From contig OX637287.1 in the NCBI GenBank assembly GCA_951799445.1, positions 40,515,724 to 40,579,723 of the forward strand: a DNA stretch of 64,000 nt, written 5' to 3'. A program made the translations under genes and the position numbers. The DNA comes from Pseudisothecium myosuroides (taxonomy: Eukaryota > Streptophyta > Bryopsida > Hypnales > Lembophyllaceae). The notes under the pieces were generated by a model that was not told where the DNA came from, searched no databases, and saw only the letters and a list, made by a program, of their open reading frames with translations. Positions 19,894 to 57,419 of this stretch are shown here, in pieces; within the stretch, counting starts at the first letter, position 1; the number at the start of each line of letters is the position of its first letter.

Positions 19894-19984
19894 AGATGGC
19901 AAATAACTTCTTTCATTGTGATTTTTGGCTCATATGGAAGCTTGTTTGTAGCAAACTCTACTGACTTTAGACTACTTAATACTT

Positions 19985-20562: not shown

Positions 20563-20599
20563 AATTGCAACTTACAAAGGTAAGAGCAGGACGTGAAAT

Positions 20600-27778: not shown

Positions 27779-27818
27779 TTAAGCTCACTGGTAGTATAAA
27801 TTTTAGTAATAGCATTTA

Positions 27819-29708: not shown

Positions 29709-30126
29709 ATCCGCAAGATGTATGCTTCACATTGCTAAATTAAACAACTCCTTCTGGGTAGAAGCAGTTGCGACTGCATGCCATTTACAAAATTGTTCAT
29801 TCACTTCAGCTTTAATAAATGTTACTCCATTTGAGCTTTGGACAGGTATAAAACCTGATCTTCAAGACCTTCGTATTTTTGGTTGCCACGCATATTCTCA
29901 TATTCCAGATGAGAAGCGCACCAAACTCGACATAAAATCTTTAAAGTGTATATTCATTGGTTATAGTCAACCCACTGGCACAAAAGGTTATCGATTATAT
30001 GATCCAAAGAATAATTGTGTTTTCTCAAGCCGTGATGTAATTTTCTCAGAAAATTTATTACTTCCAGGGGGAGCTCTTATTTCCAAACAACCACCTGATG
30101 AACTCACTCTTGAGCCTGATGAATAG
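29690..30126 (+). CDS. Copia integrase C-terminal part (shifted frame)
   Basis: Continuation of integrase in the +1 frame: NRTLIESARCMLHIAKLNNS, ATACHLQNC, TPFELWTGIKPDLQDLRIFG, then IFIGYSQPTGTKGYRLYDPK and SRDVIFSEN, which are typical integrase C-terminus/linker motifs. It stops at TAG 30124-30126, inside the normally continuous linker before reverse transcriptase. Confidence 0.85.
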
Positions 30127-30163
30127 TATAATATTCCAGAGGTTACCAATCCTCTTCCGTTGA

Positions 30164-32011
30164 ATGGGCCGCCAACCCCTCCAATTCAGCAACACTTACC
30201 TGACCCACCATCACCGCCTCCTTTATCACCAGACTAAATCGACTAAATCTTCAGCAGCCTCTCCGCAGCACTCTCCTCTCCAAAGACCTCCATTTGTAAC
30301 TGGTCTTTCTCCTCGCCGATCACAACGCCCCACTAAGGGCCACTGGCAATCCATCAGATATGACGATGAAAGCCACTATGCCTTTGCCTTCATGACTCAG
30401 GTTTTAGACCCTGTCACTGTGACTGAAGCACTTTCTAGTCCTAATGCTCTTCAATGGAAAAGTGCCATGGATGTCGAGTATAATTCCTTGATTCAAAACA
30501 AAACCTGGCAATTAGTTTATCCACCCCTCCATCGCAATATTATTAGTACAAAATGGCTCTTCCGTCGGAAATACAAATCTGATGGTTCTTTAGCTCGCTA
30601 CAAAGCTCGCTTCGTAGCTCGGGGGTTTTCTCAACAAGCGGGTATTGATTATAATGAGACCTTCTCACCTGTTATAAAAATGACATCACTACGACTTTTA
30701 TTGGCCTTCGCCACTATAATGGACTACCACATTCATCAAATGGATGTGACTACCGCCTTTCTAAATGGCATTTTATAGGAAGAAATTTTTATTTCTCAAC
30801 CCGAAGGTTACATCCACCCCAATACCCAACATCAAGTATGCTGCCTGCTTAAGTCTCTTTATGGGCTTAAACAAGCCTCTCGCGTATGGTATGAACTGTT
30901 TGCTACTTTCTTACTAGACCAAGGCTTCTTAAAATGCATCTCCGATCCTAATGTTTACATCAAAAGATCTCACTCTGTCATTTTATTAATTGGCTTATAT
31001 ATTGATGACCTGGTTCTCATTTCCAATGATCTTCAATATTTATCCCTCACCGAATCGTTATTTTCACAATGCTTCTCTATGACGGACAATTCTGAGATTG
31101 AGTATATACTTGGAATTCAAGTTCACCGTGGTCGCTCAACCAAGACCCTCACATTATCACAAGCAAAATATAATACTGATATTTTGACTAAATTCCACAT
31201 GACTGACTGTAACTCTGTCAGTATTCCTCTAGAAGCTGGGATCCATTATTCTCGTGAGCAAAGCGAGAACCTCACTAATGCTGAAATTGTTGCCATGAAT
31301 GATGTGCCTTATAAGCAAGCCCTTGGAGCCATACAATATCTTGTTTCTTGTACCCGATGGGATATCGCTTTTCCTGTCAATCATTTGGCTCAGTTCATGA
31401 TAAACCCAGCTCCTGTACATTGGCTCGGAGTTAAACGAATTCTTCGTTATTTAAAAGGATCTATACAGACTGGTCTTACTTATTGTGGAGCTCACTTCAC
31501 ACCCTCCATGCAACATCGTTTAGTAGGCTGGAGTGATGCTGATTGGGTTGGGGACCCTGATACTCGTCGATCCACCTCCGGCTATATCTTTCTCGTGGAT
31601 TCTTCGTGTATTCTCTCTTGGAAAAGTCATAAGCAGTCAGTTGTCGCCCTTTCCTCAACAGAAGCTGAGTACATTGCTGCAGCTACTGCGACCAAGGAAT
31701 TATTATGGCTTCAAACCCTTATTGGCGAACTCCAGTATTCTTTACAGCTTCCCAGCGTTCTCTTCTGCAATAATCAGTCTTGCATAGCATTAGCAAAGAA
31801 TTCTAGATTTCATGATCGTTCTAAACATATCAGTATACGGTTTCATTTTCTTCGTGAACAAGTTGCAAATCAGCTCATCAACCTAGTTTACACCTCCACC
31901 TCTCACATGTGGGCCGACGTCCTTACAAAATCTTTACCCAAAGTTAAACACCAGGCCTGTCTCCTCGGAATTCAGAACTTTAACGAACCTCCTGGTTTAT
32001 CGAATTGTTGA
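30164..32011 (+). CDS. Copia reverse transcriptase-RNase H, with internal TAG at 30776
   Basis: The linker SPRRSQRPTKGHW leads to reverse transcriptase (WKSAMDVEYNSLIQNKTW; STKWLFRRKYKSDGSLARYK; DVTTAFLNG). The catalytic block LIGLYIDDLVLIS is near 30993-31031. A TAG at 30776-30778 interrupts it just before EEIFISQPEGYI, in the same frame. RNase H motifs follow: DADWVGDPDTRRSTSGYIF, LSSTEAEYIAAATATKELLW, HDRSKHISIRFHFLREQV. It ends at TGA 32009-32011. The linker before it is in the preceding frame, so another shift lies near 30230. Confidence 0.9.
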
Positions 32012-34450: not shown

Positions 34451-34519
34451 TAAGGAGATTTTAGTAAGAATTTACTAGAAATATATGTGTTTCTAGTAAA
34501 ATTTTACTAAAAATCTCTT
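34451..34519. repeat. Small hairpin element
   Basis: Arms AAGGAGATTTTAGTAAGAAT... and ...ACTAAAAATCTCTTT fold on each other around ATATATGTG with few mismatches. The hairpin lies between two parts of a wider inverted repeat (AAGTAATGAC left, GTCATTACTT right at about 35463), so it looks like a miniature element inserted next to the TTAA element. Confidence 0.6.
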
Positions 34520-34522
34520 TAA

Positions 34523-35455
34523 CCCCTAAAGGACCGTTGTCCCTTCGAGGGACAAATGCGTTTTCGGGCAGGTACCTACGGGCTGAAATTTTCTCCTGAT
34601 TTTTTGAAACTTTTTCTGGAGCTCGAACAGCTGATTAGCTTCGTGGGAATATAATTTTTTCCACGATCGGTGCCCGGGAACAATAGTTATGACCAAATAA
34701 GCTGAAAACAAGGGACGGCGGGCAGTCCGGGCAGCAGAAAAAAAATGGACAAAAATTTGAATTTTTTTTTTTAATATTTTTTTTCTGATAGATTATATTT
34801 TTGCCTATCTGGAAAGCTTTGATTCATTTCATTTGGATATGTTATGAGAAAGTTATGGATATTCTTGTTTTTCGGGCAGTTAGAGCATCTTCTTGAAAAA
34901 AATAACTTGTAGGATTCATTTCTGAATGCAATTTTCCAAATTTTTCATTTTTTTTTTTTTCATGGTGTAATTTACTTGCTAGAACAATCTCACCATTGGG
35001 ATTAGTGCATTTTAATTCCATCTAAAATATATGAATATTTTAGATTTTCCTTCTATCTTGGACCTACTTCTACTTAACAATTTTTTTAAGAATGATAATT
35101 AAGTTTTTTTGAATTATTTTTTTTTTCCTAGACTCTCAACTCAATTCTCTACAATAAAGATTTAAAGCTCTAAACGCTGTAGTGCAAAAATTTTAAGTTA
35201 AAAATGTTTAAAGCCAAAAAATCTAGCCCCGCAATGTGCTGAAAAACTTGTTTTTTTCACTTTAAACGCCGATATCTTGCAATCTGTGCGGTCAAAAATT
35301 TTGAAATTTTTTCCATACATTCTCATACTAGTTAGGTGTAAGATCCTACGGTTAGATGTTCAAAAAAAACATTTTTTAAATTTTTTTATACTTTGCTATA
35401 GAAATGGCAGTTTTTAGTGTTTTTTGGCAGAAAAAAGGCCTTGGGCCTTTAGGGG
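34523..35455 (+). mobile_element. TTAA-flanked non-autonomous element A, copy 1 (piggyBac-like termini)
   Basis: 933 bp between TTAA (34519-34522) and TTAA (35456-35459). Ends CCCCTAAAGGACC and GGCCTTTAGGGG are inverted repeats with one mismatch. TTAA duplication with 5'-CCC termini is the hallmark of the piggyBac superfamily (established knowledge); Kolobok also uses TTAA but has other ends. No coding sequence. Further copies: 40769-41208 plus 54364-54834 (split), 36177-36800 (diverged) and part at 39340-39655. Confidence 0.8.
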
Positions 35456-35462
35456 TTAAAAG

Positions 35463-36042: not shown

Positions 36043-36176
36043 TTAAACCCTAAACCCCCTAAAATTTCAGGATTATGGTTTTTCCAAAAGATACTCCAAA
36101 GTTCCCATGATTCCTATTGCAAAGAGAAAACGTTAGAAAGATTTTTTGTGCACATCTAATTCTTGCATCTTGCATT

Positions 36177-36800
36177 AGCTCCTAAAATGCCATTGTCCTT
36201 AAAAGGGACAAAATGGATTTTGGATAGGCTCCCATAGTCTCAAGTTTCATCATATTTTTTTGAATTTTTCTCTTAAAATTGATAGAATAACACATTTAGT
36301 TAACTTTTGGTGAATATAATTTTATTCAATCAGTGTCTAACAACAAAAGTTAGGCCATCCAAAGCACAAAATGGACAACCTTAAAATTCTTTAAAAACTT
36401 AAAATTCAATTTGAACTCAATTTTGGGTTATAATTTTTTATGGTTTATATAACTTGAAATCCAAACTTGAACTCTGTTTTTTTTTATTTACAAAAAGTTC
36501 CACAAAGCTTAGTATGCTTTCTAGAAAAAAAACTCACTATTGGAAATCTTAGAGTATTTCAATCCCATCTTAGAACTATTTGTGATTTAGTTTTTCCTTC
36601 TATCTCATACTTGCTTCTACTTGATAACTTTCTAAAGAATGAGGATTAAGTGTGTATTTTTTGCATTTTTTTATTAGACTTCAATATAAAAAAACTTTAA
36701 TTCAATATTTATTTATAGTACTAAAATTTTAAATTAATAAGATTCAAAGTCTTATAAACTAGTCATTCTTGGTGCCCCAAGAAAACCTTTTTCTTCACTT
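36177..36800 (+). mobile_element. Diverged copy of element A
   Basis: Starts CTCCTAAAATGCCATTGTCC and follows element A through GGGACAAA.TG..TTT.GG..AGG, CTCACTATTGGAAATC and CCTTCTATCTCATACTTGCTTCTACTT. The ends are degraded; an AATCCCTTAAGGGCC stretch lies at the right limit. Old insertion with no gene. Confidence 0.6.
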
Positions 36801-37306: not shown

Positions 37307-37919
37307 TACAACCACTAACAAAATTGAGTACAAATCTGAAATGTTTCCATTCAAACAACTATACTATAAGCATCAATGGACAAAGTCTAAAAGTAGACAT
37401 AACAAAGTTGTAGTGTGCAACATATTACACGTTTCTATGGAAATTTGAAGAAAAAATTAGTTGTGATTTGAAAGAAAATTAATTTCAAAGGTAGCCATGT
37501 CTAAAACTCGGTTTTGTTCACCATAATTTGGAATTACTTTATCTTTTTTCAATTTTTTCTTAGAATTCTAAAAAAGAATTTGTTCCTTGTCGTATTGGCA
37601 TACATCATTTTAGATTTTTGTACACACAAATTGAAGGAAATTGGCATTATTAGAATTTGAAATATTAACAATTTGACAAAACATGCAAATGATGTTGGTT
37701 CTCACAAAATTTGAATTTTTTTTTTGAATTGAGAGCATGGGATTGCATTAGCCATTATAGAGAGAGTATAGGTTGCAACATGGACCAAATGTTGTTATAT
37801 CTTAATGCCCTTGCATTTGAAATATTTGTTGAATAGGGCAATACAATTCAATTTGTATTTTACAACTATATCATGCGTTTTTAGGATCAGATTTTTTCTT
37901 TGAACACTAAGTTTATGAT
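37307..37919. repeat. Long inverted repeat, left arm (partner 38675-39289)
   Basis: About 613 bp, from TACAACCACTAACAAAATTG to GAACACTAAGTTTATGAT, are the near-perfect reverse complement of 38675-39289. Only scattered mismatches are visible (for example CAGATTTTTT versus TAGATTTTTT). There is no coding potential. The pair frames a roughly 755-bp centre. Confidence 0.9.
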
Positions 37920-37972
37920 GCATGTAATTGTCCCTAAAAACAAAAATAAAATTACCATTTTCAATTACATCA

Positions 37973-38031
37973 AAAAACTGCCAATTTCATGAAGGTTAGT
38001 GTAATTTTTGGAAATTGGCAGTTTTTAATGA
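37973..38031. repeat. Small hairpin in the centre of the long inverted repeat
   Basis: AAAAAACTGCCAATTTC and GAAATTGGCAGTTTTT are inverted around about 24 nt. Stem of 16-17 bp. Confidence 0.7.
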
Positions 38032-38129
38032 AATTGAGAATGATAATTTTTTTTTTGAATTTTTTGCTAATTATATGCATTATGAACTAAAATTGTCTTG
38101 TCAAACATGTTTAGGGGTTTTGGCGTTGT

Positions 38130-38672
38130 GTAGGACGTCCGACATCGCGTGTCGTATGAGACAATTGAAAGTATTGGATGGGAGTCGCATCCTATCGTAT
38201 AAGGCCATTTTCAACAGCTAAAAAAATTTAAAATCTCACTATAATTATGAATCTAATATGTATTCAATAAATTGAGACATTTCATTTAAATGAGACTTTA
38301 ATATGTCAAAATTCTAAAATTTTGATGGCTTATTTTGAAGTCAACTTGATGTTGACTCAATTATGCATCTTAACCCTTTAGTGACTAAGAAGCCCGAATT
38401 GGGTCTCATGTTTTTTTAAGCAATTTTGAAGAATTTATTTGTGGATTTTTATTTATTTTAAATATTATTTATTTAAACTAATGCATGCAATGTTCTTCAT
38501 TCAAGCTAATGATATAATAAAAATTTCCATTTAGATTATCCTTTTTACAATATGATCAATCAAAGTTTGCAACTTAAAATCATGAATTCTTAGTACGTAA
38601 AGGGTTAAAGAGTCTGCTAGACGTCTTGTGACGTTTGTTTGACAAGTTGTTGCCGTATTTGGTAAGACAACC
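38130..38672 (+). repeat. Dispersed repeat D, copy 2 (contains a TTAA element)
   Basis: Matches 16321-16640 in order, but is interrupted by the element at 38374-38604. It lies entirely between the arms of the long inverted repeat, and its right edge touches the right arm. Confidence 0.65.
38374..38604 (+). mobile_element. 231-bp TTAA-flanked MITE with terminal inverted repeats
   Basis: Flanked by TTAA (38370-38373 and 38605-38608). Left end CCCTTTAGTGACTAAGAA; right end, reverse complemented, CCCTTTACGTACTAAGAA. The paralogous repeat D at 16.3-16.6 kb runs through this point without it, giving an empty-site comparison that confirms insertion. No coding capacity. Confidence 0.82.
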
Positions 38673-38674
38673 AT

Positions 38675-39289
38675 ATCATAAACTCTAGTGTTCAAAGAAA
38701 AAATCTAATCCTAAAAACGCATGATATAGTTGTAAAATACAAATTGAATTGTATTGCCCTATTCAACAAATATTTCAAATGCAAGGACATTAAGATATAA
38801 CAACATTTGGTCCATATTGCAACCTATACTCTCTCTCTATAATGGCTAATGCAATCCCATGCTCTCAATTCAAAAAAAAAATTCAAATTTTGTGAGAACC
38901 AACATCATTTGCATGTTTGTCAAATTGTTAATATTTCAAATTCTAATAATGCCAATTTCCTTCAATTTGTGTGTACAAAAATCTAAAATGATGTATGCCA
39001 ATACGATAAGGAACAAATTCTTTTTTAGAATTCTAAAAAAATATTGAAAAAAGATAAAGTAATTCCAAATTATGGTGAACAAAACCGAGTTTTAGACATG
39101 GCTACCTTTGAAATTAATTTTCTTTCAAATCACAACTAATTTTTTCTTCAAATTTCCATAGAAACGTGTAATATGTTGCACACTACAACTTTGTTATGTT
39201 TACTTTTAGACTTTCTCCATTGATGCTTATAGTATAGTTGTTTGAATGAAAACATTTCAGATTTGTACTCAATTTTGTTAGTGGTTGTA
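38675..39289. repeat. Long inverted repeat, right arm (partner 37307-37919)
   Basis: About 615 bp, reverse complement of the left arm. Open frames in it (for example near 38.9 kb) are chance AT-rich reads. Together the arms could form a fold-back structure of about 600 bp; RNA read through both arms would be double-stranded. Confidence 0.9.
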
Positions 39290-40550: not shown

Positions 40551-40768
40551 TTAATAGTTTGAAGATGGAACTCAAATCCATCAATCTTCAATGTGAGATT
40601 GTCCTAGAAAAAACTCTTAAGACTATTATTTTTATTTTAAATCACTATATATTTCAAGCTCAAAAATGAATCTAGTATGTTAAATTTTCAAGAAGATGTT
40701 CAATTTGCCTATAAAAATAGGATTTCATCACATTTTTATTGCATTACTAATCCAAATGGAATAATTAA

Positions 40769-41208
40769 CCCCTAAAGGATCATTGTCACTTCAAGGGACA
40801 AATGAGATTTTGGGCAGGTACCTACAAGCTGAATTTTTGTCTTGATCTTTTTAAACTTTTTTGAAGATAAAAAAATTTATTAGATTTGTGGAAATTTTAT
40901 TTTATTTTCAATCGGTGCTCGGGAACAAAAATTATGTTCAAATAAGCTCAAAATAAGGGAGAGGGGGGAAGCAAAAAAATTCTAAATTTTGAATTAAATT
41001 TTTTTTCCTCATAGATTATATTTTTGTCTACATGGCAAGCTTTCATTCATTCCATTTGGATTTGTTATAAGAAAGTTGTGGACAATCTTGTTTTTTGGGC
41101 AATTAAAGCATCTACTTGAAAAAATAACTTGTAAGATTCATTTATGAATGCCATTCTTATTATTTAAAAATAAAAAATGTTCCACATGGTTTAGTTGCTT
41201 TTTAGAAA
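40769..41208 (+). mobile_element. Element A copy 2, left half (split by the giant element)
   Basis: TTAA 40765-40768, then CCCCTAAAGGATCATTGTCA, following copy 1 (34523 onward) base for base with substitutions to GTTTAGTTGCTTTTTAGAAA. At this point copy 1 continues ...AATCTCACCATTGGG, whereas here sequence switches to CTCGGGGGGG. The missing half resumes at 54364. Confidence 0.85.
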
Positions 41209-41705
41209 CTCGGGGGGGAGACTCCTCGATGCAGTAGAAAAGTACGTGAAATAAAAAGTAGGGTCAATTTAATTCGTTGGAGATAAAATTTAGAAATTTA
41301 TTAGGTTTACCATAGCATTGGAAATATGTTATTTGTATGAATATAAATAAAATAGGGCGGTTACAAATCATTTATTTTAGAAACCAATAGAAAAAAATAT
41401 GGAGGTAGACTTAGGATTCTATAAAATGTGTTTAGTAGGATGAGTTCAGAATACAAATACTAGGCATCGGATGGATGAAAAACTGTGCCCTTTCTGTCCA
41501 ATTTTGAAATTTGACTATAAAGACCTGGAGGAAAATTCCTTTGTTGGAATTATGGCCTACGAATCTTGTCTAGCATTGCTCGTGGCGCTACCAACGGCTG
41601 CTTTGTAGGGACTATGGAGATGACGCACGTTTCCTTTGAAGTTCTAAAACATTGGATCCCTGGACGACCGTTTGGAAGTTTGACAACGCATAAGCACGAT
41701 GTATG

Positions 41706-42200
41706 CTTAGGGTTTGATTGTGAAAGTGGTGGCTTGTTGTGGATTTTGTTTTGCGCATGGGATAAGCGGTTTAGGGTTGCCTGGCTTCTACAGATTTGTG
41801 GTTAGTGGATTTTGGCTGAGGGTTCAAGGTTTTGGTCTTTACGATTCAGCGTTTTCAGTTCATGTGAAGCGAACTGCAAAGTTTTTTGGTGCAACAGCGG
41901 TGGGGCATGCAGATCGTTCCTGTGACCTTCGGTAAGTGCATACAGACAGAAACTCACATTGACATTCGATGTTTTAGACTACGGCGCTGCTGCTGCACGG
42001 TTGAAATTCTGGTTCAGGTTGAAGTTGGTATTCTAGATGAAGATTGTTGCTCCCCTTTGTACTTAGGGTTTAGGGCCCAGTTTCAGTTCTAAATCAATCT
42101 AGGGTTTAGGGGTTCCGCTTTGCATACTCGTTTTGAATCTAGGGTTGCAGAACTTTCTTGTTTAAGTCTTTTGCTGGGTCTGAGGGTTTAGGGTTTGCTT
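41706..42200 (+). promoter_or_regulatory. Leader with repeated TTTAGGGTTT (telo-box-like) motifs
   Basis: CTTAGGGTTT at about 41707 and 42060, TTTAGGGTTG at about 41770, CTAGGGTTTAGGGG at about 42101 and GAGGGTTTAGGGTTTG at about 42182. These are reverse telo-boxes (AAACCCTAA), known in plant promoters of housekeeping and cell-cycle genes. They lie 0.7-1.2 kb upstream of the transposase-like ATG, so a promoter/5'-UTR role is plausible but not shown. Confidence 0.35.
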
Positions 42201-42949
42201 ATGGAGGCTTCAGAATTGACTTCCCTCTACTTGGATGTAACAACTTATGGTGTTGTGGAGTTGCAGCGTAGACTTCATTCTTGTTAGCTTGAATCCACAG
42301 TGGTAAGTTATTCCCATATACAAAGTCAGATTCAATGCAAATGTTGTTGCATACTCGAATTTGGAGTGGTAAGTGGTGACACCTTCAATCATGCTACGAT
42401 TTCAATTCCGTTTTAGGGTACAATTCACATTACAGATGTAGAATGCTACTCCGCTTTTGTGCTTCTATTGCAATTTGCACTTTGGATTCCAGATAGATTG
42501 AATGCCGCTTCATTTTTGAGATTCAGTAAGGGGTTTAGGCCTTCTCACCTTCTAATCATGCGCCTATTGATTTACTTCCTATGCAGATTTCCGTTTCCAA
42601 TTTGCTTTCAGAATCCTGTCATTGCTTTGTGGTTGTAGTTTGCCGTCTCTATTCTGGTCTTCCTTGGTAAGCTCCGAACTCTGTACACATCTTTTCTTTC
42701 CTAGCATTACAGCATAACAGTAGAAGCGTTGACGATTTCTGCATGACATTAGCTTACAGTTCGGGGTCCAATTTATGGTTAAGCTCCAATTCCCTTATGT
42801 CGTTTTCCATTAGTCTTCCAACTGTTATGAATGTTCAGCCGCTTTGCAATGGGAATCCTATGACTGTTAAACCTACAAATGTTTAATTTTGACCTGCTTG
42901 TGGGATTTGTAATGCTCGCCAGGCTCTGTGTTGGTCGTGAGAATTTACC

Positions 42950-45900
42950 ATGGCGGTAAAGAAGATCAAAGTCTACGCGCTTAGTCACGAGGGTGCACTA
43001 CCAAAGTGCATAGGGACCATGAAGGTTGATGATGGAGAGTCCCTTTCTGACTTACGAATGCAGCTTGAAGAGAAGAAGGTTTTGAAGTTTAAGTTTCAAT
43101 ATTGGGATCCGAAGGAATTGTGTAGAGTGGCGGTCACTCTTGAAGCCCTCAATGACATTGGCGACAGCGTTTTCATGCTCCTTGTCTTGGAAGAAGAGTA
43201 TGAAGATTCGGCCAGCAAAAGACAACACTTTGGAGGAGAATAAGACTTTATTGATAGCCGCCAGAGTGACGCATCCCAGATGCCAGAAGTGACCACCACC
43301 GATACTAGCGAATTTACAGAAGTCCCTGCTCTCCCACCTTCTTCTTCCAGGGTTAGTGGTTCCAGCAAAGAATGTTTCTTGCAGTCCCAGACCATATCAA
43401 CAGAGCTCATATCCATGTATAGGGAGGGAGGACAAAAGCTCCGCAAAGCGTTAAAGGAGGTTTCACTAGAGGATCACGAGTGGTGCTTAAAGTCCTATGA
43501 CCAACTTGACAAATCCATCGTAATTGTCATCTGCCTGGAGTGCAGGAAAGATTTTGGAGGGACCGAGGGGCTACATTTGAAAGACAGAGTTTCCAATTTG
43601 TTTTCAAATTTTAGAAAGAGCCATATTATGAGTAACCAGCATATTAAAAACTGGTGCTTGAAGAAGGGTCTGGACTGGTGCAACCACTCACAGTCAATAG
43701 CAAAAGGGAAAAAAACGGTGATTATCACCACGGAAGATCACAGGCGGCTGGTGTTGGAAGGGGTTGAGATTTTGAATGCTATGAATGAGAGTTTGGACCC
43801 GGAGCGACCAACTTTCCAAGTAATTGGTGGAGATCTAAACACTGCTGAATTGAAGAATTTCTGGTGGAAAACCAAGTGCGTCACTTGCAACGACATCTAC
43901 AGCCTCTGTCCACCAAAAAAAAACCTTGAAGCAAACTTAAGGAACCATGTTAGAGGGACCAGACATGCAGAGAAGGTGATTGAGAGTGTTGCATTGGATA
44001 GGGCTCCAGTTTTTTCTGGCAAGCAGGGGAGGCTCGGGAAATCTGTCGGAGACAGCTCTCAACTTGGGCAAAAGTAGTTGCATGCTTTTTTTGGCCACGC
44101 TGGAAACAACCCTAAGTAATTTCTTTCCCAATGCTTTGACTACTCAAAATGCAAGACGTTCATGTGCTGGGGTTTTAGGGGGTCACTTGTAGTATACGGC
44201 GGAAAATCTTTTGAGATTGAAGGTCTTTTTTTTGACATTAAGCCTAGCCAAAATTGGTACGCAGAACCTTGGTTGCAAGAAATTCTTATTCATAATGGTC
44301 AATGTTCAAAAATCAATGGAACTTTTAGGCATCGTAATTGTCACCGTGTCTCAATGACTAATGAATCCTGGTCTGCTTTTACTTGCACTATGTGTGCTAG
44401 TATCCCTTTGGAAATTGACTTTAGATTAAGGGTTATTAGGGAAGACAAATCTATTGAAAAATGAGGTACAAGAACTATAGATAATGGAAGAAGAATTGGG
44501 TACCTGTCCTTGCCTGAATTGACTGCGCACAGCAGGTCCGTGTCCAAAAAATTTAGAAATGAGCACTTGTACCATTGGTCTGCAAAACTAAGGATTGCTC
44601 AATTCGTCAATTGAAAGTGAAGCGATCCACGCTAAAAGAGTCTGCAGCTACTGCGTCCAAGGAACATAACCTCTACAAATTTTGTAGAGACATCTTGAGT
44701 GCTCACTGGTCTGGTGCGTTGGTGGTAGACCAGCACTTTGAGATTTCATGCGCGATGTAGCTGCTAATTTGAATTGCAGGAAGGAGGGGTTTAGGTTCTC
44801 TGAGAATTCGAAGGCTCTTGCTCAAGCTATGAAGGTGTATGGAGGTAGGAAGATGTGTGATTTGTTTTCGTTGAATTATGTTGGCCCTAGTTATAGTACT
44901 ATTAAGAGGGATAATAAAAAAGGAATACAATACGTGCCGGGGGAGCATGGTGAGATCTTTGCAACTGTGGCGGACATTTACAAGGATGCAAAGCCTGCCC
45001 ACAGGATCATTGGACCTGTTCCTGTCATACTAGCTGAAGATGAGACAAAAGTTAGGTCTAGAGTGTCGTATGAGCAACATTTTGACACTCTTGCAGGGTT
45101 ATGCGGTCCAAAGGAAAACCATAGCTGCATATCAAATTATAAACTTGTCGTGGGCACGGGGGAGGGGGGTTACAATAAACTTTTACAATGCTTCCGGTCT
45201 GACAAAGTGGGAGGTTTTGCTAGGGTTGTGATGGTGAGCCCACTTCATGACAAGTTGCCAAGATTAGTCTTGTATGTTTCTTGTACATGTAATTCCTTTG
45301 ATTCGCAATGGGTTAAACATCAGTGGACCAAAATCAAAAATTTGTGGGACAAACATTGCAAGTCTGAACTCTGAAGTTGGGCCTGTAATAGGTCATGCTA
45401 GTGACGGAGACTCACATAGGCGGCAACTCATGCTGGCCGACTACAAATCCACAGATGGGCAGCAAATGAAGTTGGAGTGGCCCGGTTGGATCTTCACAGG
45501 TAAGGTTGAAACCGATGGTCATGTCACAGGGTTGCATACACAATGGTAAGAAACTAATTAATCCTATTGACTCCCCTGTGAGGATGCCACAGTTGGGATC
45601 TGATGTGGTTACATTAACTCATTTGGGCTTGGTTTATAATAAGTTCAGCTGTGACCAGCATGGTTTGAAGTTGGAAGACACAAATAGAAAGGACCAGCAA
45701 AATTGGGTGTCGGCACAAAGGATTTGCCAAAAGTGGACAAGGGACTGTTTGGCACAATTGCGGGCATCAAAGGAGGTCCACCAAGAGCTCACATTGGGCA
45801 CGGAATGCTATTTGGAGGTTTGCTCTAATTACATAGATATATTTCTTTCCCCTAGGCTGAATTTGAGGTCTAGGATAGTTTTAGCTTCCAAAGTGTCTTT

Positions 45901-47405
45901 TTTCTTCCGTATTTGGAAACTTTGGTTCTAGTTTGGGAATCATTCAGTTGGGAGTAATTCCAAGAAATTAACACCTGCCATTAACTTTGTATCACAACAA
46001 TGCTTTATAGACGTCCAAATGTCTTGTCATTTTGTGGTTTTGTTAATTTGTCACTTCCGAGACATGTATTCTAACTTGGCAGTTCCACTCCATTTGATTG
46101 GTTCAGATTTGTGTAAGATTTTTTTCTCAAAAATTGGAGGAATGGAGGGTCACAAGAGAGCATATGACTTCCACCAGCTTTGTAATACTACCAACACCTT
46201 AAATCGACTAACTGCTACTGAATACAAGGACAGAGGGCTGAAATTTGGGAGAGTGCACAACAAAATGAAAAATGTGTGGGTTGATCTGCATCCCTTACCG
46301 AGGATGAAGTCCCTTGTGATTTATCATATTACAGCTAGATCCTCACAGAGGATGACGTCACTTGCACTCTGAAAGAGGGTTTAAAAGAAGCCCAATCTAT
46401 GCTTAGGATATTGAACATGGCACCCAATGTCCAATGTGCTAACAAAGTGTGGTTTGTAACACCGTGGCTAGTTGAAAAAGTGGACCCCCAGCATTCTGCA
46501 TATGTCCCTTCAAAATCACCTATTAGGGTAGAAGACGGTGATACTGAGGTCCTCCGCTCTAATCTTGAAGCAAATGCCACAGATGAGGCCACCATGGACA
46601 GTAATTTGAATCCATTGGTTGAAGGAGAAGAAGACATTGTCAATGATGGCTCCTCGAATTTGAGAGCTGTAGAAGCCGAGACCCAAGACGCAGTAACACA
46701 CATGCTGAATTTGGAAGAGCCTCAAGTGACGAATGGCCTCCCCATAGACAAGGTAATCCTCTTTGTTCAATATTCTGGTCATAATATCTATAAGTCCACG
46801 CTTGTGTCACAACTTAATGCAAACCCTTTCTTGCCCAAAGATAGATTAACTAGAGTAAAAAATTCAATCTATTTTAACAACTTTGGTGATTACATCAATG
46901 CTTCTATTTGCACGGAGACTATGCTGTTGGGTCTAGGTTGGATTGTGGAGTCTATTTTCTGCAGCGAAGTACAACGAGTATATCCTCTTCAGTGAAAGCT
47001 GCAGTTCGGAGGACTAGGGGGAGACCATCCAACAGATTGCAACCAACGTGTGTCCTCAACGGAGTTGACCATGGTACATGGTGCATTGGTCGTGTCCAGA
47101 AAATGAGGCGCAAGGTAGGTACTAGGTGGGGAAACTGCCGACAGCCAATTGATCTCCAAAATCGAGATGTAAGCAAAGGTAAACAACCAGGTACAACCGG
47201 ATCGTCTTGTATGGTGTACTTGAATTATTTTAGGAGAGTCCCCGGGCAATTGAAATTCAAATATGATCATGCTGATTCTATATGGGTTGACATTGATAGT
47301 ATCATTTGCACAGTGACTATGTCGTTTGATTCAGAGAGGGATGTGTTCCAACTTGACCCGGTAGATGGAAATTTATTGAATGAGTTTGTAGAGAAATCTA
47401 ATTAG
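42950..47405 (+). pseudogene. Decayed transposase-like gene, about 1,480 codons, P/THAP9-like layout
   Basis: One protein is spread over three frames. Parts: N-terminal ubiquitin/PB1-like segment (VKKIKVYALSHEGALPKCIG, 42950-43240); Cys/His zinc-finger-like segments (CLECRKDF...H....H and CVTCND...H....H, 43280-44074); CWGFRG...NGTFRHRNCHR...C..C block (44162-44460). The putative catalytic half follows: PVPVILAEDETKVRSRVSYE (Asp codon 45039), FARVVMVSPLHDKLPRLVL, VGPVIGHASDGDSHRRQLML (Asp 45403), YIDIFLSPRLNLRSRIVLAS, and GSDLCKIFFSKIGGMEG (about 46107). Then a low-complexity region, AT-hook-like RRTRGRPSNR, and a C-terminal domain to TAG 47403-47405. Stops at 43241, 44075, about 44119, 44462 and 45929, with shifts near 44600, 44750, 45370, 45510, 46340 and 46950. 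The motif order (acidic 'DE', later 'DG..RR', late 'D..FF...GG') recalls P-element/THAP9 RNase H transposases; this is inference. I recall similar proteins in plants and invertebrates but cannot verify. Confidence 0.7.
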
Positions 47406-48767
47406 CACGCAACCAAATCTGTTTTGGCTTAATTATTTTGCTTGATCTGCTCCATTTGTATGAATTTCAGTTTGCAAATGTCATGTTCATCAAAAAATCT
47501 ATCCGGTACATATATTTAGATCTGCAGATTGAATGCAGGACGCCCTGGAATTAGAGGGACGTGTTCTCCACACTGCCTCAAGCTGTTGAGGTTGCACATT
47601 ACATTTGTGAAATCATACGATTTTGGTGTCGTCTCTTATAGTGTGTAAACCCGTGGTAATAGGACTTTGACTTGTGGTTTGGTGTATTTTATTTTGAAAA
47701 TTGCCCCTGAATTAACTGGTCTGATTTATGTGTATTTGTTAGAGATTTAGAGTTGTAAATTTCTTTTGGAAAAGAGGGTATGCCTAAAACCGTGCTTGGG
47801 TTCCTGTAAGCATAGCATTAATTAAGAGTTGACCCTGCGTAAAACATGCGTTTTACAGTACTACATGTCACTGCATCCGCCGGATTTTGTTGCCACCGTG
47901 GAAGATTTTTTTTAATAATCTCCCTTGAATTGAAGAAGTGATATGCATGACCTGAATTGGTGAAGTGAGTGAAGCTGCTGTGAATTATCAAGTGGGAAAT
48001 GAAATTGATATCAGGTATAAAACTTCCAATATTTTCTAAAATATTTTGTACTTGTTTTGTCATTGATGTAGTATTTGATTGCTGAAATTTGATGTTTGTG
48101 ACCCTAAACCCAAACTGCAGGTTTGAAGAATCTGGAGAGCACATTTAAGGGGGTATGTGTTTCTTTTCCTTCAACCTCATTTACTGCTAGTTTTTCTAGT
48201 TTCGTTGCAGCTTGTTCACTGTCTGAACCAGCTCGCTTGGTTTCTCAAATCAGCCCTAGTCGTGCCGTGTTGTTGAGGTCCTCTTCTTCCGTGGTGCTTC
48301 TGTGTTCTAGTGCACCTCTGTGTAGAATGTCGTTGTGATCCCCGCTGGTAGGCATTGTGGTAGGAGGTTGGGTTTTTTGGTGTCATCGTTGTTCCTACAA
48401 TGGCCGTTGCTTGCGGGGGAGCATGCCAGTTGATTTCTTTGTTTTTCACGAACATTTGGGCTTGCTTGCGGTACATTTGGAGCTCTGTATTTAGGTTGGT
48501 CGTCTTGTTAGCATTTTATCTGTCTTTGCCCAGCTTGATCTTCCCAGGGGTGGTTGAAGGCCAACAGCGCACTGTCTTGCCGCTGCTGAGTTCTGCTGCT
48601 CTGTGTTGTTGCTAGATTTTCGCATTTCTGCATTCCCGGATTTGTGTCGCACTTGTTTGATCAGTGGTTTTGTCAACTAGTTTCATTCCTCCGTCTTGCC
48701 TTTCACCATTGATAGTGTATCTGCAAATTTCTTTGCCTGACTAACCCTAGCGCCAGCTGACCTGCCT
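47406..48767. other. Spacer between the two coding regions of the giant element
   Basis: Probable 3' UTR of the transposase-like gene, then 5' parts of the second gene. CTGCAG|GTTTGAAGAATC...AAGGGG|GTATGT (about 48121-48151) looks like a small exon (LKNLESTFKG), followed by a long pyrimidine-rich intron. Confidence 0.35.
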
Positions 48768-49115
48768 GTGTGTGATCAGAGCCTTGAGTATCCTTTGCGA
48801 GATGTGGTCCTCCCTTTTCTTGTACCACAAGTTCATTTCCATGATTCCTGGAAATGGGATAAGCCCCAAGATCCAAATCCGGTGACTATTGCCACAATTG
48901 ATAGCATTCAAGGGATTGCCAGTAGTTGGAAGGATTTTGTGGAGGGAACAGCTGAATGGGGTGCTATTACCTTGGCGCGCCACAACTTTGAGTTGTTGCT
49001 GCCTCCCGTGTGGGGCTCGGAAGAAGAGTTTGTTTTCTTGCGCTTTGAGGAGTATCGGAGTCTCTTCACAAAGAACTGGATTCTTCGCCAACCACTTGCT
49101 GATGATTGTTGGCGC
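48768..49115 (+). pseudogene. Second coding region of the giant element, first part (unrecognised cargo)
   Basis: Open frame with coding character: DVVLPFLVPQVHFHDSWKWD, TIATIDSIQGIASSWKDFVE, WGAITLARHNFELLLPP, EEFVFLRFEEYRSLFTKNWI, RQPLADDCWR. The start may be ATG 48768, or an exon start after TGTGATCAG at about 48778. Directly after the CGC codon (49113-49115) the sequence changes character and stops. A frame with matching character resumes at 53200. No known family is recognised; it is not a standard transposase or helicase. Confidence 0.5.
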
Positions 49116-50350
49116 ATGTGAGCTCCCAATTCGTCACTTGGGACTCATAGTCTTCTTTTTTTCCTAAATTGTGCAATTTAAGTCGTAATTATATACAAAA
49201 AGCCCTAAAAAGAGTGTAAAACCAGAATGGGCATACTAATATGCCCTTTGGTCCTAAGTAGCCTTTTCTCCTTAGAATAGCCCTAAAACCCACTTGTAAA
49301 TAGGTTAGAACCACAGAAGTAGTGAGAACTAGAAGGTTTGAAGGTTCTTACCCAAAATAGCCTAAAACCCCTGTGCATGTGACCCGGCTTGGCTAAATGG
49401 GTCTGAGGGAAGTCTAGGTAGATTCTTAGATAGATTCCCCAAGAGAGGTTTCAGTTTCCCCATCCCATCGACGAATAGTAGAAACCCCAATCGTTAGCTT
49501 GCAGGTGTCACTTTCTCAAGACAGGCCAGTGGAGGAATCTATGGTCACCGGACTGTGATCTTGGATTGGAACCGTACCGGAAAGTCAAAAGTGAAATCCA
49601 TTCGTCAAGATTCCCCTGTATGCGGAAGATTCCCTGACTGCCGGTAAACCAACGGAGGTATCTTTTTGCCCTCCGTATCAAGACATGCAAGCTCAAGATG
49701 TGAACTTGCAAATCTCTTGAGAGACTCCATGAGAGGTTCCCCAAGAAGTTTCGGAATTTTCTGGATTGAAGAAATACCCCTTCCGGACGGTCAACCGCCT
49801 AAAATCAGGATGGGAAATTCACGATAATTACCCAGGTGGCGGTAAAATCTCACTAAAAATTAAGTTAGCTTCTTTTATGCTAATAACGCGCCCCGACAAG
49901 TTTCATGGTGTTTCGATAGCGGGAGACGGCCGAATCACCAACATTCCTTCGAATTATCCACGTGGATGGATTTACGTGGAGTTGACCGGCGTCTCGGGAG
50001 CACACGAAGTCGGAACGAAGTCAACGAAGGGTCTTTTCTTACTCCCTAAGACCTCCCAGACCACCTTGGCTAGTCACCTTTGTCAAAAAAGGTAACCTCC
50101 AAAAAGTAGATTTTTACCTCTTTTACTAACTCCAGTTGGCGATAGTTTACGGTGGGATTTTGGTGTTGGAATAGGGGGTAGGAAGACCTCGGGACTAAAA
50201 ATGGCCTTCTGAAGCCAGTGGCGCAATCGGTTTTCAATTTGGACCAGCGTAAACCCCAAAATAGGTGAAAATCCTAAAAGATAAGGATGAAAATCCAAGT
50301 TGATAGGGTTACCTAGGTTAAAAGGGGGGAGGTGAGGGCCTTGGGAAACC

Positions 50351-50358
50351 TATAAAAG
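50351..50358 (+). promoter_or_regulatory. Candidate TATA box
   Basis: TATAAAAG in the context GGAAACCTATAAAAGGGCCC, followed by a CT-rich leader; looks like a pol II core promoter inside the nested insertion, as in many LTRs. Confidence 0.4.
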
Positions 50359-51134
50359 GGCCCTCATTTCTCTCCAAAGCCACCCCCCATGCTTGTTTTG
50401 GGGTCCATTGGCTCCAAGTAATGTTGGATATTTTGGCATTCTAGCCAAAAACCCTAGCGGTGTTTTAGGGCCTTTGTTGCCCCGTTGTTGTTATTATTTC
50501 AAGCTTTCAAGTTCCCTCTTAGTTGCCATTGGAAAGAGAGACGTATGCAATTCTTGAGATCACCATTGGTATTTGGTTATATTGATCTATTTGGTGTATT
50601 AACCCTAGAGCCCCCCCCTTCGTACCTTGGCGATGCCGCTTAGGGGGACCTCTAGTATCTTCGAGTGAGTCACGTAGTGCTAATGTAGAGACTTATGTCC
50701 TAGTTTACCCTTGTCTTGTCACCCAACAGCGAAGCTTTGAACTTGATTCTGTTATTTAGTTCCAAACAGTGTGTTAAAAACCCCGCGACGGCGGAGCCCT
50801 GGCTTCAAGAACCTTTTTAGAAGTCCCAAACTTTGGTGTTAAAACCCAGGATACGACGGAGCTCTGAGCCTCCTCAGTTGTCATGCCCAAAGTTTAGTTT
50901 CCAAAAGAATGTGGAAACTAACCGAAGTTTAGTGTCCAAAAATTAGACAAATAGTTCTTTCCCTTCTAGTTACCCCCATGCAGTTAGTTATAGAGAAAAA
51001 AAAAAGAACGTTATCAATAGACTGGTAGGGATTCCCCCTAACGGAAGAAACCCTTGCTTCTTTTTTTTTTGTTGTTGTTTCGCCTACGTTTGTTTTTATT
51101 ATTAAGCAGCCCAACCACCCACGGCAGCCCAAGG

Positions 51135-51290
51135 CCCTAGTATTCCAAGCAGCCCAGAGCCCCCAGTATTCCCAAGTAGCCTGAGACCCCAGTATTCCCA
51201 AGCAGCCTGATACCCCAGTATTCCCAAGCAGCCTGAGACCCCAGTATTCCCAAGCAGCCCGAGGCCCAGTATTCCCAAGCAGCCTGGCAG
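51135..51290 (+). repeat. 26-bp minisatellite, about six units
   Basis: CAGTATTCCCAAG recurs at 51164, 51190, 51216, 51242 and 51267 (period 26, last 25), preceded by a diverged unit. The full unit is roughly CCCAGTATTCCCAAGCAGCC-TGAGAC. It is followed by a GC-rich tract (about 51285-51410). Repetitive Trp/Leu/Gly open frames on the minus strand are translation artefacts. Confidence 0.9.
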
Positions 51291-52432
51291 CCCGGCAAGC
51301 CCGGCCAACCTAGCGCCGCCACGTGGCGGCCTGCCACGGGCCCGCCCCCGGAGGCTCCCCGCTCCGCCCACTCCAGGCCCTGCTCCGCCCCACTCCAAGC
51401 CGCAAGCTCACTTTTTTTTGGATTTTTTCTCTCATCATTTGTAAACACCAACAAGTTAGGAAGAGGTAGATTAGGCTAAAATAAAAAGACAAAGGAATCG
51501 AGGGGTTGGGATAGAAATTAGAGGGAAGAATAGACAAGGCAAAAAAGGGTAAAAAACCTTGTAGGAGGAATCTAATCAAGTAGGGGAAAGCTAGAAAAAA
51601 GGGGGAGAAGAATAGAGGAGGAAGAAGTAACAGTTAGGGTGATGGAACTCCATTAATTAGAAGAAAGAGGGCCCTCACCTATCCACAAGCTCACACACAC
51701 TCAATCACACCTCTCCAAAACACTTGCACGCCTCAAAAGCACCAAACAAAGCTTGAGAAAAACAACCAAGAAGAAGGCTTTAGTAGGGAGACGATGAATA
51801 GGGAATAGATTAACAAAAATCCTACAAGGCATTGTGAGCCATCGATTGCTCTTTGCGTAAGGGGAAAAGAACCAAATGCGTCATTCGCATTATTGGAGGT
51901 AGTTGGTAGACATTAAGGGCATGTAAGAGAATAGTGTAGAAGGAAAAAGATAGAGGGAAAAGGAAAAGAGAATAGCGAAACATACAAAGTTGGAATTTAT
52001 AATACAAGTGATCACTTCCTCAAACAAAAAGGGCAAGTCACCAAGATGGCATCCGGGGGAAACCTAAGTGACTTGATTCGCGATCTCCAAGACGAGGTGG
52101 GTCCCTAAACTCCCTCCTTGAATTCAAAATTTCCAAAGAACTAGCACTTGCTAGAAAGGCCGAGAGCTAGGGTAGGCAAGAAGCAAAGTCAGGTTGAAAT
52201 TGAATTTAGAATATTATAGTAGAGGGCTAGAGGTTTCCAAAAACCTAAAACACGTAAAAATCCGAATTAAAACAAAGAAGTTATAAGGGATGAAGTTAGG
52301 GAGTCATGTTGGATGAAACGTAGCAAAATTCATCCAAGAGGAACAAGAAATAGGGTTTTGGAGAGAGGAGGTTATTAGGAACCCCCACGTGGAATTAAAA
52401 GTTAGTTTTGAAATTAGGGCTAGCCATAATTA

Positions 52433-52945
52433 ACGGATGAAGTTTGAAGGACCGATTAGTGGTCAAACTTCATCCATGAATAACTTTTGATAGGAAACCC
52501 CAAATCTAGTGTGGTTAGTCAAAATAGAAAGCTAAAATCAAGATCTCCTCGGAACAAGTCTTAAGTTCTAAGACTAGTACATTAGTAACCACACTTAAGA
52601 TCCTTAAGTAAGATTAGAAGGCGGATTAGGGACTTTTAAGATTAAGTTAGGTTAAGTATAGATTTAGAACATCTTAAAACAAGTTTAGGGTAACCCAAAA
52701 CTAAACCCAGCTTAAGGAAATACCTAAACCCCAAGTAGTTAAGAAGGGATGAAGTCCGGAACAAGTAATGGATGAACCCTAGAAGATTTCATCCATTTGA
52801 GTCAAGACTTGGTAATTAGGTTAACCTTAGGGGTTCAGGCTCATAGCCCAAATCCTAAGTCAAATTGAAATCTGGAGTCCATAGAAAAGCATGGATGAAG
52901 TTTGAGGAACCGAGTAGCGGTCAAACTTCATCCGTCCATAACTTT
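52433..52945. repeat. Two copies of a GGATGAAGTTTGA hairpin
   Basis: At about 52434-52480 and 52893-52942: GGATGAAGTTTGA, about 20 nt including ACCGA.TAG.GGTC, then TCAAACTTCATCC, with AATAACTTT-like sequence following. Both form 12-13 bp stems. Other lone GATGAA/TTCATCC words lie between and before them (52299, 52330, 52749, 52783). Confidence 0.7.
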
Positions 52946-53199
52946 CTCTAGGAGAGTCCAAATCAAACAAGCTTTATATTTTTAGAAATGGCATGAGGTA
53001 TTCTTTCATTTAGAATAGATAAGTTTAGACCAAGATTAACTCTTCTCCCAAACCACCAAGCCCTCTTAGGCTTTGATTCAAACTTAGCAATTATAGCAAT
53101 TCCAATTAGGGTTTTGTTTTGTTCTCTTCATTATCCGAATTAGCAAGTCTTAGGAGCATAGAAAAGATCCATTGCTTGGAAGGCACAATGTATTGGCGC

Positions 53200-53460
53200 T
53201 AGACACCCATAGATCGAGTCAGAACGGTTATTTACCGAGAGCTTGGTTGTGCTCGCTTCTTTACCAAGGGTGGGTAAACAAGCGCTTACAGCGGACTGCG
53301 CCATTCGAAGACCTGTCTGCAGCAGACATGGAGGCATTGCGTTGTGGCTTGGAGGAGGAAAAGGTGGACTGGTTGGAGACGCCCGAGAGTGGATGGTTGG
53401 AGCCTTCCCTAACTTTGTGGATTACCCCCACAGCTCGTGGTGGTGCTTGGTGAAGCACTT
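53200..53460 (+). pseudogene. Second coding region of the giant element, continuation
   Basis: In the frame of the 49115 end, after one TAG, it reads TPIDRVRTVIYRELGCARFF then TKGG. It then moves to another frame with NKRLQRTAPFEDLSAADMEA, LRCGLEEEKVDWLETPESGW. The switch near 53270 suggests a frameshift. It ends near 53453. The flow from ...ADDCWR into ...TPIDRV without the 4.1-kb insert is the reason for joining it with 48768-49115. Confidence 0.45.
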
Positions 53461-54355
53461 CCCTATTTTTTCCTTCGGGTGCAATTCATTTTGGTACCTT
53501 TAGCGGCTAGTTTCACTGAGGCTTTGTCATTACCAGCTTTTTTTATTTTACAGGCCTTAGAATTCATCTGGAAATAGCAGTTTCTTAGGTGTTGCACATA
53601 ATATGCAGTTTTTGAGTATAGAGAATGTTCCCTATACTTGACATTGTAAACGTATACCTTTATCTTGGGCAAGGACTTGTTTGGACTGTGTATATTTACA
53701 CAAATGCTATGTTGAATTCTCTGTATTTGCCTTTCTCAGGTTTTAGTGCAGTCACGGCACTTGGCTGGAATGTTTGGAGATTCTATGTTTTCTTGCACTT
53801 TATCTTGCGTTGCAAAGGTTGTTTTCATTGCTCCGGCCTTCCCATGTTTGCAAACTTAGGCTGTCATTGCACAAATGTTGTTCTCACGTTGGTTGAATGT
53901 TTTAATTTCATGGTTTTGTTTTGGCAGTCTTTGCAATAGTGTTTGTATGTTTTCATTGCAAGAACTTGTAGGTTTCCATTACAAGTGATTTTTCTGGTTT
54001 TGTTTTGGTGGCCTTCCAATACTCACTTGCTCGTATCACTTCTAGTGTCTTAAGTCAATTTGCATGATAGAGAATGAACTCTAAACTTACTTAAACACTT
54101 TTCTAATGCTTTGCATTTTGTTCAGTATTTGGTAGTTCTACAATGTTGGAAAAATAGAGTGCCAACAAATAGTCTCTAAATCCACTTACAAAAAAAAATA
54201 GGGTACTAAAAAATACCCCCCCGTAGCTTTTTTTCTACAATTAGGGAACAAAAAAATACCTATAAGGACATAAATACCCCCCAATAAATACCCCCCCATA
54301 AATATCCCATTTTTGCACGTGGTTACAAAATATTTAGGGGTGTGATCCCCCTAAG
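53461..54355. other. Right flank of the giant element, with C-rich subterminal repeats
   Basis: No gene. Between about 54190 and 54355 are several TA(T/C)CCCCCC-type words (AATACCCCCCC, AAATACCCCCC, AAATACCCCCCC, AAATATCCC) and ATATTTAGGGGTGTGATCCCCCTAAG at the end. Repeated subterminal motifs are common transposase-binding arrays. Confidence 0.5.
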
Positions 54356-54363
54356 TCTAGAAA

Positions 54364-54834
54364 AATCTCACCATTGGGATTAGTGCATTTTAATTCAATC
54401 TTAGAGATATTTATAATTTAGATTTTCCTTCTATCTTAAACCTACTTCTACTTAACAATTTTTTAATGAATAAAAATTAAGTTAAAATTTTTTTTCCCCC
54501 TAGACTCTCAACTCAATTCTCCACTATAAATAATTTAAACCTCAAAACTTTGTAGTGCAAAAAATTAAAATTAAGAAGGTTCAAAGTCAAATAATTTAGT
54601 CCCCCAATGTGTTGAAAAACATATCAATTTTTCATTTTAAATACAAATATCTTGCAATCTATGCGGTCAAAAATTCTAAAAAAAATTTGCACATTTTCAA
54701 ACTAGTTAGGTGTAAGATCCTATATTCCTATGGTTAGATGTACAAAAAAGAATTCAATTTTTTACTCTTTGCTATAAAAATGACAATTTTGAGTGTTTTT
54801 TGGTAGAAAAATAGAGGTCTTGGTCCCTTAGGAA
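54364..54834 (+). mobile_element. Element A copy 2, right half
   Basis: Resumes element A at AATCTCACCATTGGGATTAG and runs to GGTCCCTTAGGAA before TTAA (54835-54838). With 40769-41208 it totals about 911 bp, close to copy 1 (933 bp). Confidence 0.85.
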
Positions 54835-54996
54835 TTAAAAATCTTTCTACATAGATATAAATAAATAATTCTACAATATAAAAAATATTATTCTGAATTT
54901 TATGAACTAAGGAAAGTTGCTGTAGCTTGAAGATTTTGAGTTTAGAATGGAACATCTTTACTTTACAATACTAATTGTAAAAATTATAAGTTAATA

Positions 54997-55186
54997 CAGT
55001 AGAACCTCTCTAAGCTGATCGGTCCCAGACCGGTTTGACAGATTGATTTAGAGAGGTTTATTGACTTTTGGAGGGTCATTTTTAGTCACAGCCTTTGTTA
55101 TTTGGCCCAGTCCAGGACCGGTCTGACATGATTGAGTTATGGAGGTTTATCGACTCAGAGGGGATCGACTTAGAGAGGTTCTACTG
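54997..55186 (+). mobile_element. 190-bp pogo/mariner-type MITE
   Basis: Flanked by TA (54995-54996, 55187-55188). Inverted ends CAGTAGAACCTCTCTAAG match perfectly for 18 bp. CAGTA.AACCTCTATAA-like termini typify the pogo/Tigger group, including plant Emigrant MITEs. No coding sequence; internal inverted GACCGG(T/A) words. Confidence 0.9.
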
Positions 55187-55188
55187 TA

Positions 55189-57419
55189 TCTTTTTTTTAA
55201 TAATCTTAAGAAGTTTTGAAAAATATGGCAAAATCTCAAACCATCATGAATTTGTTTGTACTGTACTTCAAATTTTCATTTCTCCACTATATAGGTTAAT
55301 TCATCTTGGAATGAACAAAGTGTCTAAAATGGACCTTTTCAGCTTAGAACATGTATTTTCAAATGAACAAATTATCAATTTAAACATGCTACTCAAGTTG
55401 TCCATAAATCAAATTCAAAATTGCACGTTTACAACAATTTAATTTTAGTATACTTCTTGGTTGTATCACTTGAATGTGTGCCCCCCACCTTAAGATGTAG
55501 CTAGGTGAGTTTGAATAATTATTAAGTTTTTGGGCATCCATCTACCATACACATATATTTTACCTACAATCTTGTCTACCGTACGTTAGGGTCAGATTTG
55601 TCAGACCCTTGATGAAATCTTTTTTTTTTTTTGGTATTTCTTTTTTTTTAACTGCGTTTCAAAGTTTCAAAGTTTCAGTTGGTGATTGAACGCTTTACAT
55701 GACTTCCCACTCTGTACCAAGCAGAACTTGCTCAGTTTAGCTAAAGTTTAGGGAACTTGCTCAATTTAGCTAAAGTTTAGAACTGGGAAACAAGTTCCAC
55801 CAATTAAATCCTGAAAACAATCCCTAATATTTGGCACTTAGGGCTTCCGTTTTGTTTCGAGGATTTAAATTATTTTCATTAACATTTTTTTACATTTCAA
55901 CCGATTTGCCACGTTATAATTTCTGAAAATTTCATCACATGCCATATATGTTTATATTTTGAATTATTTTTTAACAAGTCTTTCAAAACCATATCTACCC
56001 ACAAACTAAAAATCCTCATAACTTTTGACTCATTGATCCAAATTGAATGATTTAAAGCTTCCCACATATATAGAAATCTAAAGAACCAATTTCAAATTTT
56101 TATTTTTTTTAAAAGTAATTTTTAAAGAAGTTTTCTGAGTTGCCTTGGCTACGCAAAGTTCAAAGAAATTACATATCATGCAATAACTTTTTAACTATGT
56201 ATTCAAGAGTTATGAAAATTGTTGGGCCATAAAGCTACTCCTTGGGCACATGTTGCTTAAAATTTCACAGAAAAAAAATAAAAACTCCATTTGTAGTGAG
56301 TTGCCCAAAATCACTATGTTGCCAAAAAACACAGTTTTTTCCTTTAGGGGTTAATTAAAGAAATGGGATAGTACCTCTAAAGCTCGCTTAACAAACATGG
56401 ATACTAGCAGAAAGAACAACTGGCAACAAAATTCCAAAGTAGGGTCTAAAGTGTTTTTTGGCTAGACATAGGCCTCTTGCAACAAATTTTTTAAGGGACT
56501 CTACTGCAAGAGCACTAAGGTAGCAACACCCATAACCGTCAATTTAAACAATTCAGCATAGTTGGAGGTACCTTTTTCTAGAAAAAATATTTTTTCAATA
56601 TTAGCAATTGAAAATCATGAATATTAAAAGAAAACTAGAATTTTTGGATTAGGCATCTAATTTCTATAAATTTTTTAAGTAGAACTCCTTAGGGCACCCT
56701 AAACCACATTCTACTACTAAAATTGCATTGATTCTAGCACCAAAATCTAAAAAAATCATAGCTTACCAACCACAATTAAGGAGGGACACGGTTTCAAGGT
56801 ACTTTTGGAGACACTTGTAGGAAACTCTACAATTGAAGTATGGGTCCACTAATGGTTATGGGTGTTGCTACCTTACACACCTTGCTGAAATGTAGCCAGG
56901 TAAATAAAAAACATATAGAATCATCCATATATATATACCCATTTATAAAATTCTCTAATATAAGGTACTTTCATCTATATATTAACAATTTCTAAAATTT
57001 TCTTAGAAGACTTTGCCAATTTCATCCATATTTTTGCTCAATTCTTTTTGTATTAACCCCTACATGTTATTGGATGTCTCCAGAATTGACAATTTGAAAA
57101 AAATCATCATAAATTACTATTTGAAAGAATATTTTGGAATTGGCATACAAATGAAAGTTGTATATTATAAATTTTTGATTCCATCTGTACAGTTAGATTC
57201 ACCAATGTTATCATCAGTATTTTATTATAAATTTGATAGTAAAATTTGAATTCCTTCTAAATTCAATTACAAGAAAAGTATTAACATTTTTTGATTGATA
57301 CCATAACTATAGGGCAAGATCGGCACATTGATGCCAAATATTTAATTAAAGTTCCCAAAGTAGATTCAACACTTTAAAATTTAATTTTTATAAATTCAAC
57401 AGCACATTCACATCAATTC
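55189..57419. other. AT-rich repeat DNA without genes
   Basis: Contains a 29-bp tandem duplication (55725-55782; AACTTGCTCA(G/A)TTTAGCTAA repeated) and a CCTTTAGGGG-TTAA right end at 56341-56355, whose left partner I could not find. No coding signal beyond chance frames. Confidence 0.45.

Follow-up and report, generated by a model that had tools for sequence, protein, structure and literature searches.

A transposon of about 9 kb with a probable P-type transposase, enlarged by a nested insertion, in the genome of Pseudisothecium myosuroides

We analysed a 64,000-nucleotide stretch of the Pseudisothecium myosuroides genome (contig OX637287.1, positions 40,515,724 to 40,579,723; hereafter the window, in whose positions all coordinates are given), in which a long insert splits a copy of a repeat that we call element A. 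The insert carries a broken transposase gene, a second small gene and matching ends, and it had been read in the original prediction as a 13.1-kb giant transposon. The transposon is real but this size is not its own: the segment at 49117-53290 is missing from the sibling copies L010, L016, L017 and L020, so the element proper measures about 9.0 kb, and what lies at the locus is a two-gene transposon of about 9 kb that a second, nested insertion has enlarged to 13 kb. The features, with the basis of each in brackets, are as follows.

34519-35459, plus strand: uninterrupted element A copy, the empty site (alignment with the split copy)
40765-41208, plus strand: element A copy 2, left part (repeat alignment)
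41201-41208, no strand: left target duplication TTTAGAAA (alignment, flank comparison)
41209-54355, plus strand: full extent of the insert, a P-like transposon of about 9.0 kb together with the nested 4174-bp insertion (alignment, sibling and genome-copy comparison)
41209-41222, plus strand: left terminal repeat, family consensus CTCGGGGGGGTCAC (terminus consensus)
41244-41254, plus strand: left subterminal motif of ACGTGmGATAA type, starting 36 bp from the end (end comparison)
42950-47405, plus strand: broken transposase gene, matching residues 4-1472 of the relative P0001 (1475 aa) in one continuous stretch (protein alignment)
45039-45041, plus strand: first catalytic Asp codon, in AEDET (signature alignment)
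45403-45405, plus strand: second catalytic Asp codon, in GHASDGD (signature alignment)
46115-46117, plus strand: position of the catalytic Glu codon, coding for Lys in this copy (signature alignment)
48741-49116, plus strand: second gene, first part, an open frame with a provisional start (open reading frame, relatives)
49117-53290, no strand: nested 4174-bp insertion with TG...CA ends and 5-bp flanks GCGCA/GCGGA (sibling-copy comparison)
53291-53453, plus strand: second gene, last part (relatives, sibling comparison)
54310-54320, minus strand: right subterminal motif, starting 36 bp from the end (end comparison)
54342-54355, minus strand: right terminal repeat (terminus consensus)
54356-54363, no strand: right target duplication TCTAGAAA, 7/8 against the left (alignment, flank comparison)
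54364-54842, plus strand: element A copy 2, right part, outer end approximate (repeat alignment)

The insertion site could be defined within the window itself. Element A copy 2 breaks off at 41208 and continues from 54364, and the intact copy aligns end to end across both halves, which confirms both the interruption and its edges. The two flanking octamers map onto one and the same 8-bp stretch of the intact copy, bearing out the predicted splitting of element A and its near-perfect 8-bp duplication. Base composition also changes here, with a G+C fraction of 0.25-0.33 over the kilobases bordering the insert on its left, against values mostly of 0.38-0.47 within it.

The first 192 bp of the insert were then used to search the host genome (387.9 Mb, 222 contigs), giving 235 first-look candidates. 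Of these, 40 were scored and every one proved to match, the window copy among them. We examined 31 copies, namely the window copy and 30 of the other 39 scored (20 fetched at about 10 kb and 10 at about 2 kb, with 9 not fetched at length). Both ends were located in 24 of them, delimiting elements of 701 to 13147 bp, while in the other 7 (L013, L014, L015, L017, L018, L032 and L036) no right end was located in the fetched stretch. Among the two-ended copies the 8-bp flanks agreed at 8/8 in 19 (L021, L022 and L025-L028 among them), at 7/8 in 4 (the window copy, L010, L020 and L033) and at 5/8 in 1 (L019). As a control, shifted 8-mers from the same flanks gave at least 7 matches 0 to 3 times per 448-812 trials per copy, in a run with wrongly set left ends for L010 and L016, which are corrected in the counts given here. 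L011 and L012 have one target duplication in common and may represent a single insertion that was duplicated later. Short copies of about 0.7-1.8 kb retain both ends, and L009 (9162 bp) and L016 (8676 bp) are near full length. The prospect, allowed for in the original prediction, that the two ends might never occur together elsewhere is thus contradicted by copies bounded by both ends and by matching 8-bp flanks.

Comparison of the ends yielded a family consensus terminus, CTCGGGGGGGTCAC, and the family has short ends of the type CTCGGGGG. The window copy begins with CTCGGGGGG and finishes with CCCCCTAAG, so that the CTYRGGGGG inverted ends noticed earlier are present as a worn form of this consensus. 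Over the first 14 bases, ungapped, the two ends of a copy agree at 7 to 14 positions (9 in the window copy). Inside the termini lies an 11-bp motif, ACGTGmGATAA, which scores at least 8/11 in 23 of 24 left ends (the exception being L020) and 23 of 24 right ends (the exception being L012). On the left its start lies 35 or 36 bp from the end in 21 of 24 copies (L011, L012 and L035 differ, and L020 is weak), and on the right 36 bp from the end in 22 of 24 (L012 and L037 differ). Shuffled ends reached at least 9/11 in 321 of 20000 cases, a figure that serves only as a guide because the motif was found in these very ends. We regard this motif as a candidate transposase-binding site.

The large transposase-like pseudogene that had been predicted is confirmed by its alignment with nearly the whole of P0001, which runs through six in-frame stops and six frame changes. 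Judged from its sequence, the window copy is decayed past making a working enzyme. The sibling copies L009, L016 and L017 all retain D, D and E, with one stop and one frame change in L009, three stops in L016 and six stops in L017. A protein search with the core region returned 30 relatives, at no more than 63% identity there, with named matches in two liverworts, Calypogeia fissa and Riccia sorocarpa, in keeping with a bryophyte host. Searching with a profile yielded 21 matches, 2 already in the profile and 1 from a EukProt record (P0045). The family's transposase has two Cys/His finger-like stretches at its N-terminus, and its D1-D2 stretch carries invariant Cys and His. Searches for viral relatives produced 97 pattern-matching stretches, of which 0 were confirmed, and no viral fold match at an expectation value (E) of 0.001 or below; a sequence search of the PDB had no match for one piece, and the profile gave one match at chance level. 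The N-terminus of P0045 itself resembles PB1 weakly; transposases bearing a beta-grasp domain would be out of the ordinary.

We consider it probable, with good confidence, that the element is a DNA transposon of the cut-and-paste kind and that its transposase is of P type. In structural models, the predicted fold is a P-type catalytic core with an insertion domain, and its match to P lies far above those to all other folds. The D-D-D(2)H-E signature of the P superfamily, as given in PMC8230255, recurs in the family, with D(2)H in 24 of the 28 relatives having both Asp and the E motif in 22, and the distance from D(2)H to E comes close to that of P and Galileo. The Asp three residues before the Glu, equivalent to D528 and the sole guanosine triphosphate (GTP) contact that could be mapped, is present in 20 of 22 relatives. 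The 8-bp duplication is that of the P element and of zebrafish THAP9; Galileo duplications are 7 bp according to PMC4168063. A binding-site-like motif inside each end is a further likeness to the P element, although here it is nearly equidistant from both ends whereas P element sites are unequally spaced, as PMC7776569 describes them.

Several observations weigh against this assignment. Two relatives, P0015 and P0023, have Asn in place of the GTP-contact Asp, and the D1-D2 stretch exceeds its counterparts in P (73) and Galileo (88). The Pfam P models stay below their cut-offs (PF21787, 16.2 against 24.6 bits; PF21788, 13.1 against 24.8), the joined window protein has no Pfam match, and no THAP family is listed in the domain scans of this protein and the 30 relatives. 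No fully intact transposase was found among the copies read, the best being L009, and mobility is judged from sequence. The THAP domain, typical of P and THAP9, counts in our view as usual rather than defining for the superfamily. Since the P signature, the fold and the 8-bp duplication were all found, and a THAP domain and an above-cut-off Pfam match were not, we place the element in a P-type lineage and take it to act as P elements do, without calling it a canonical P element. The suggested check of the 42950-47405 protein by fold and profile points to P by fold, with the Pfam models under cut-off; of the two candidate families proposed, P is favoured by fold and signature. An undescribed giant-transposon lineage had also been suggested, yet with a catalytic core of P type there is no need to invoke an entirely new kind of transposase.

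A related reading would place the family in a separate superfamily, sharing with P a deep ancestor and the layout of catalytic and insertion domains but standing as its sister group. We consider this possible, though clearly the less probable placement. Compared with the P superfamily (Drosophila P element, THAP9, Hoppel/1360 and Galileo), the transposase, of about 1475 aa, has fingers in place of a detectable THAP domain and a longer D1-D2 stretch with conserved Cys/His, which recurs in relatives outside plants (P0045), and the element has a second gene and short G-rich termini; that every Pfam P model falls under its cut-off argues in the same direction. Against separation stand the modelled fold, so much closer to P than to anything else, and the D(2)H-to-E spacing. 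On this tentative reading there would be a new superfamily sister to P across land plants and at least some other eukaryotes, with its own fingers, Cys/His core stretch and small partner protein.

A small protein of about 183 aa is encoded by the second gene, for which three relatives were found (149-183 aa, 51-53% identity between them), with no Pfam match for any of the three. The predicted second coding region thus exists, as one small gene divided by the nested insertion. Its predicted structure was too poor for use (mean predicted local distance difference test score, pLDDT, 50.6). It could be a captured host gene carried by chance, outside the element's machinery, a doubtful proposal that draws on its unknown function and the small number of relatives, but its conservation between relatives argues against it, as does its place behind the transposase gene, on the same strand, in L009, L016, L017 and L020. 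L010 retains the second gene only.

It is very unlikely that the element belongs to hAT or to KDZ (Zisupton). The 8-bp duplications fit both hAT (PMC10741241) and Zisupton (PMC12730594), hAT elements such as Hermes share the short terminal repeats, and giant KDZ elements bear extra genes and nested insertions (PMC12477816). However, the families listed at E of 1 or below for 30 members include no hAT domain, a Hermes-like fold is not the best modelled match, and no KDZ family is listed for the same 30 members, its absence from the structure results carrying no weight. That the insert is a genic or segmental insertion whose edges merely resemble termini, a notion favoured by nothing except the degraded state of the window copy, is refuted by the 24 two-ended elements on several contigs with their matching 8-bp flanks and by the uninterrupted site in the window.

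A P-type mechanism would run as follows: the transposase binds the subterminal motif and pairs both ends, the D-D-E triad cuts, and the ends are joined to the target at points 8 bp apart, with GTP as the probable cofactor as in the P element, while the small protein may assist or regulate transposition. The window copy would have landed in element A, later received the 4.2-kb insertion in its second gene, and decayed. P elements are known classically from animals. If a bryophyte genome holds a P-type lineage, with short copies that are non-autonomous and siblings whose triad is preserved, the type would reach into plants, and there would be another system in which to test the GTP-dependent mechanism and the need for a THAP domain; a sister superfamily, if true, would make P-type transposition an ancient eukaryotic mechanism rather than a mainly animal one. 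A 2023 review names seven terminal-repeat superfamilies for plants, P not being included in the portion consulted (PMC10741241), and the titles and abstract openings of the open PMC papers searched nowhere describe this transposon family (Repbase and subscription literature lying outside that scope).

Sequence resembling the start of the nested insertion also occurs in L012, L015 and L018, and the inserted piece is therefore itself a repeat. We recognised no coding gene or repeat pair within 49117-53290. Its TG...CA ends and 5-bp flanks would fit a long terminal repeat retrotransposon, an identity rejected for want of such a pair, and a TTGGCGC repeat first guessed as its edge was dropped. Tandem repeats of 26 bp lie inside it at 51124-51286.

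Rfam and transfer RNA scans of the window found nothing. Element A is present at 34519-35459, at 36175-36271 and as the split copy (40765-41208 with 54364-54842), flanked by TTAA, with ends CCCCTAAAGG/CCTTTAGGGG and no coding capacity seen in these copies; it resembles a non-autonomous piggyBac-type element. A retrotransposon coding region, presumably Copia-type, runs from gag to RNase H in near-complete frames at 27813-32011. A long near-perfect inverted repeat occupies 37307-39289, its arms of about 600 bp being 97-100% complementary in three pieces and separated by 776 bp. Two minus-strand reading frames, which we assume to be Hsp70-like, lie at 19884-20571 and 22101-23939, the former apparently a broken relative of the latter. 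Finally, a small palindromic element at 54995-55189, with ends CAGTAGAACCTCTCTAAG / CTTAGAGAGGTTCTACTG adjoining TA, resembles a pogo/mariner-type miniature element.
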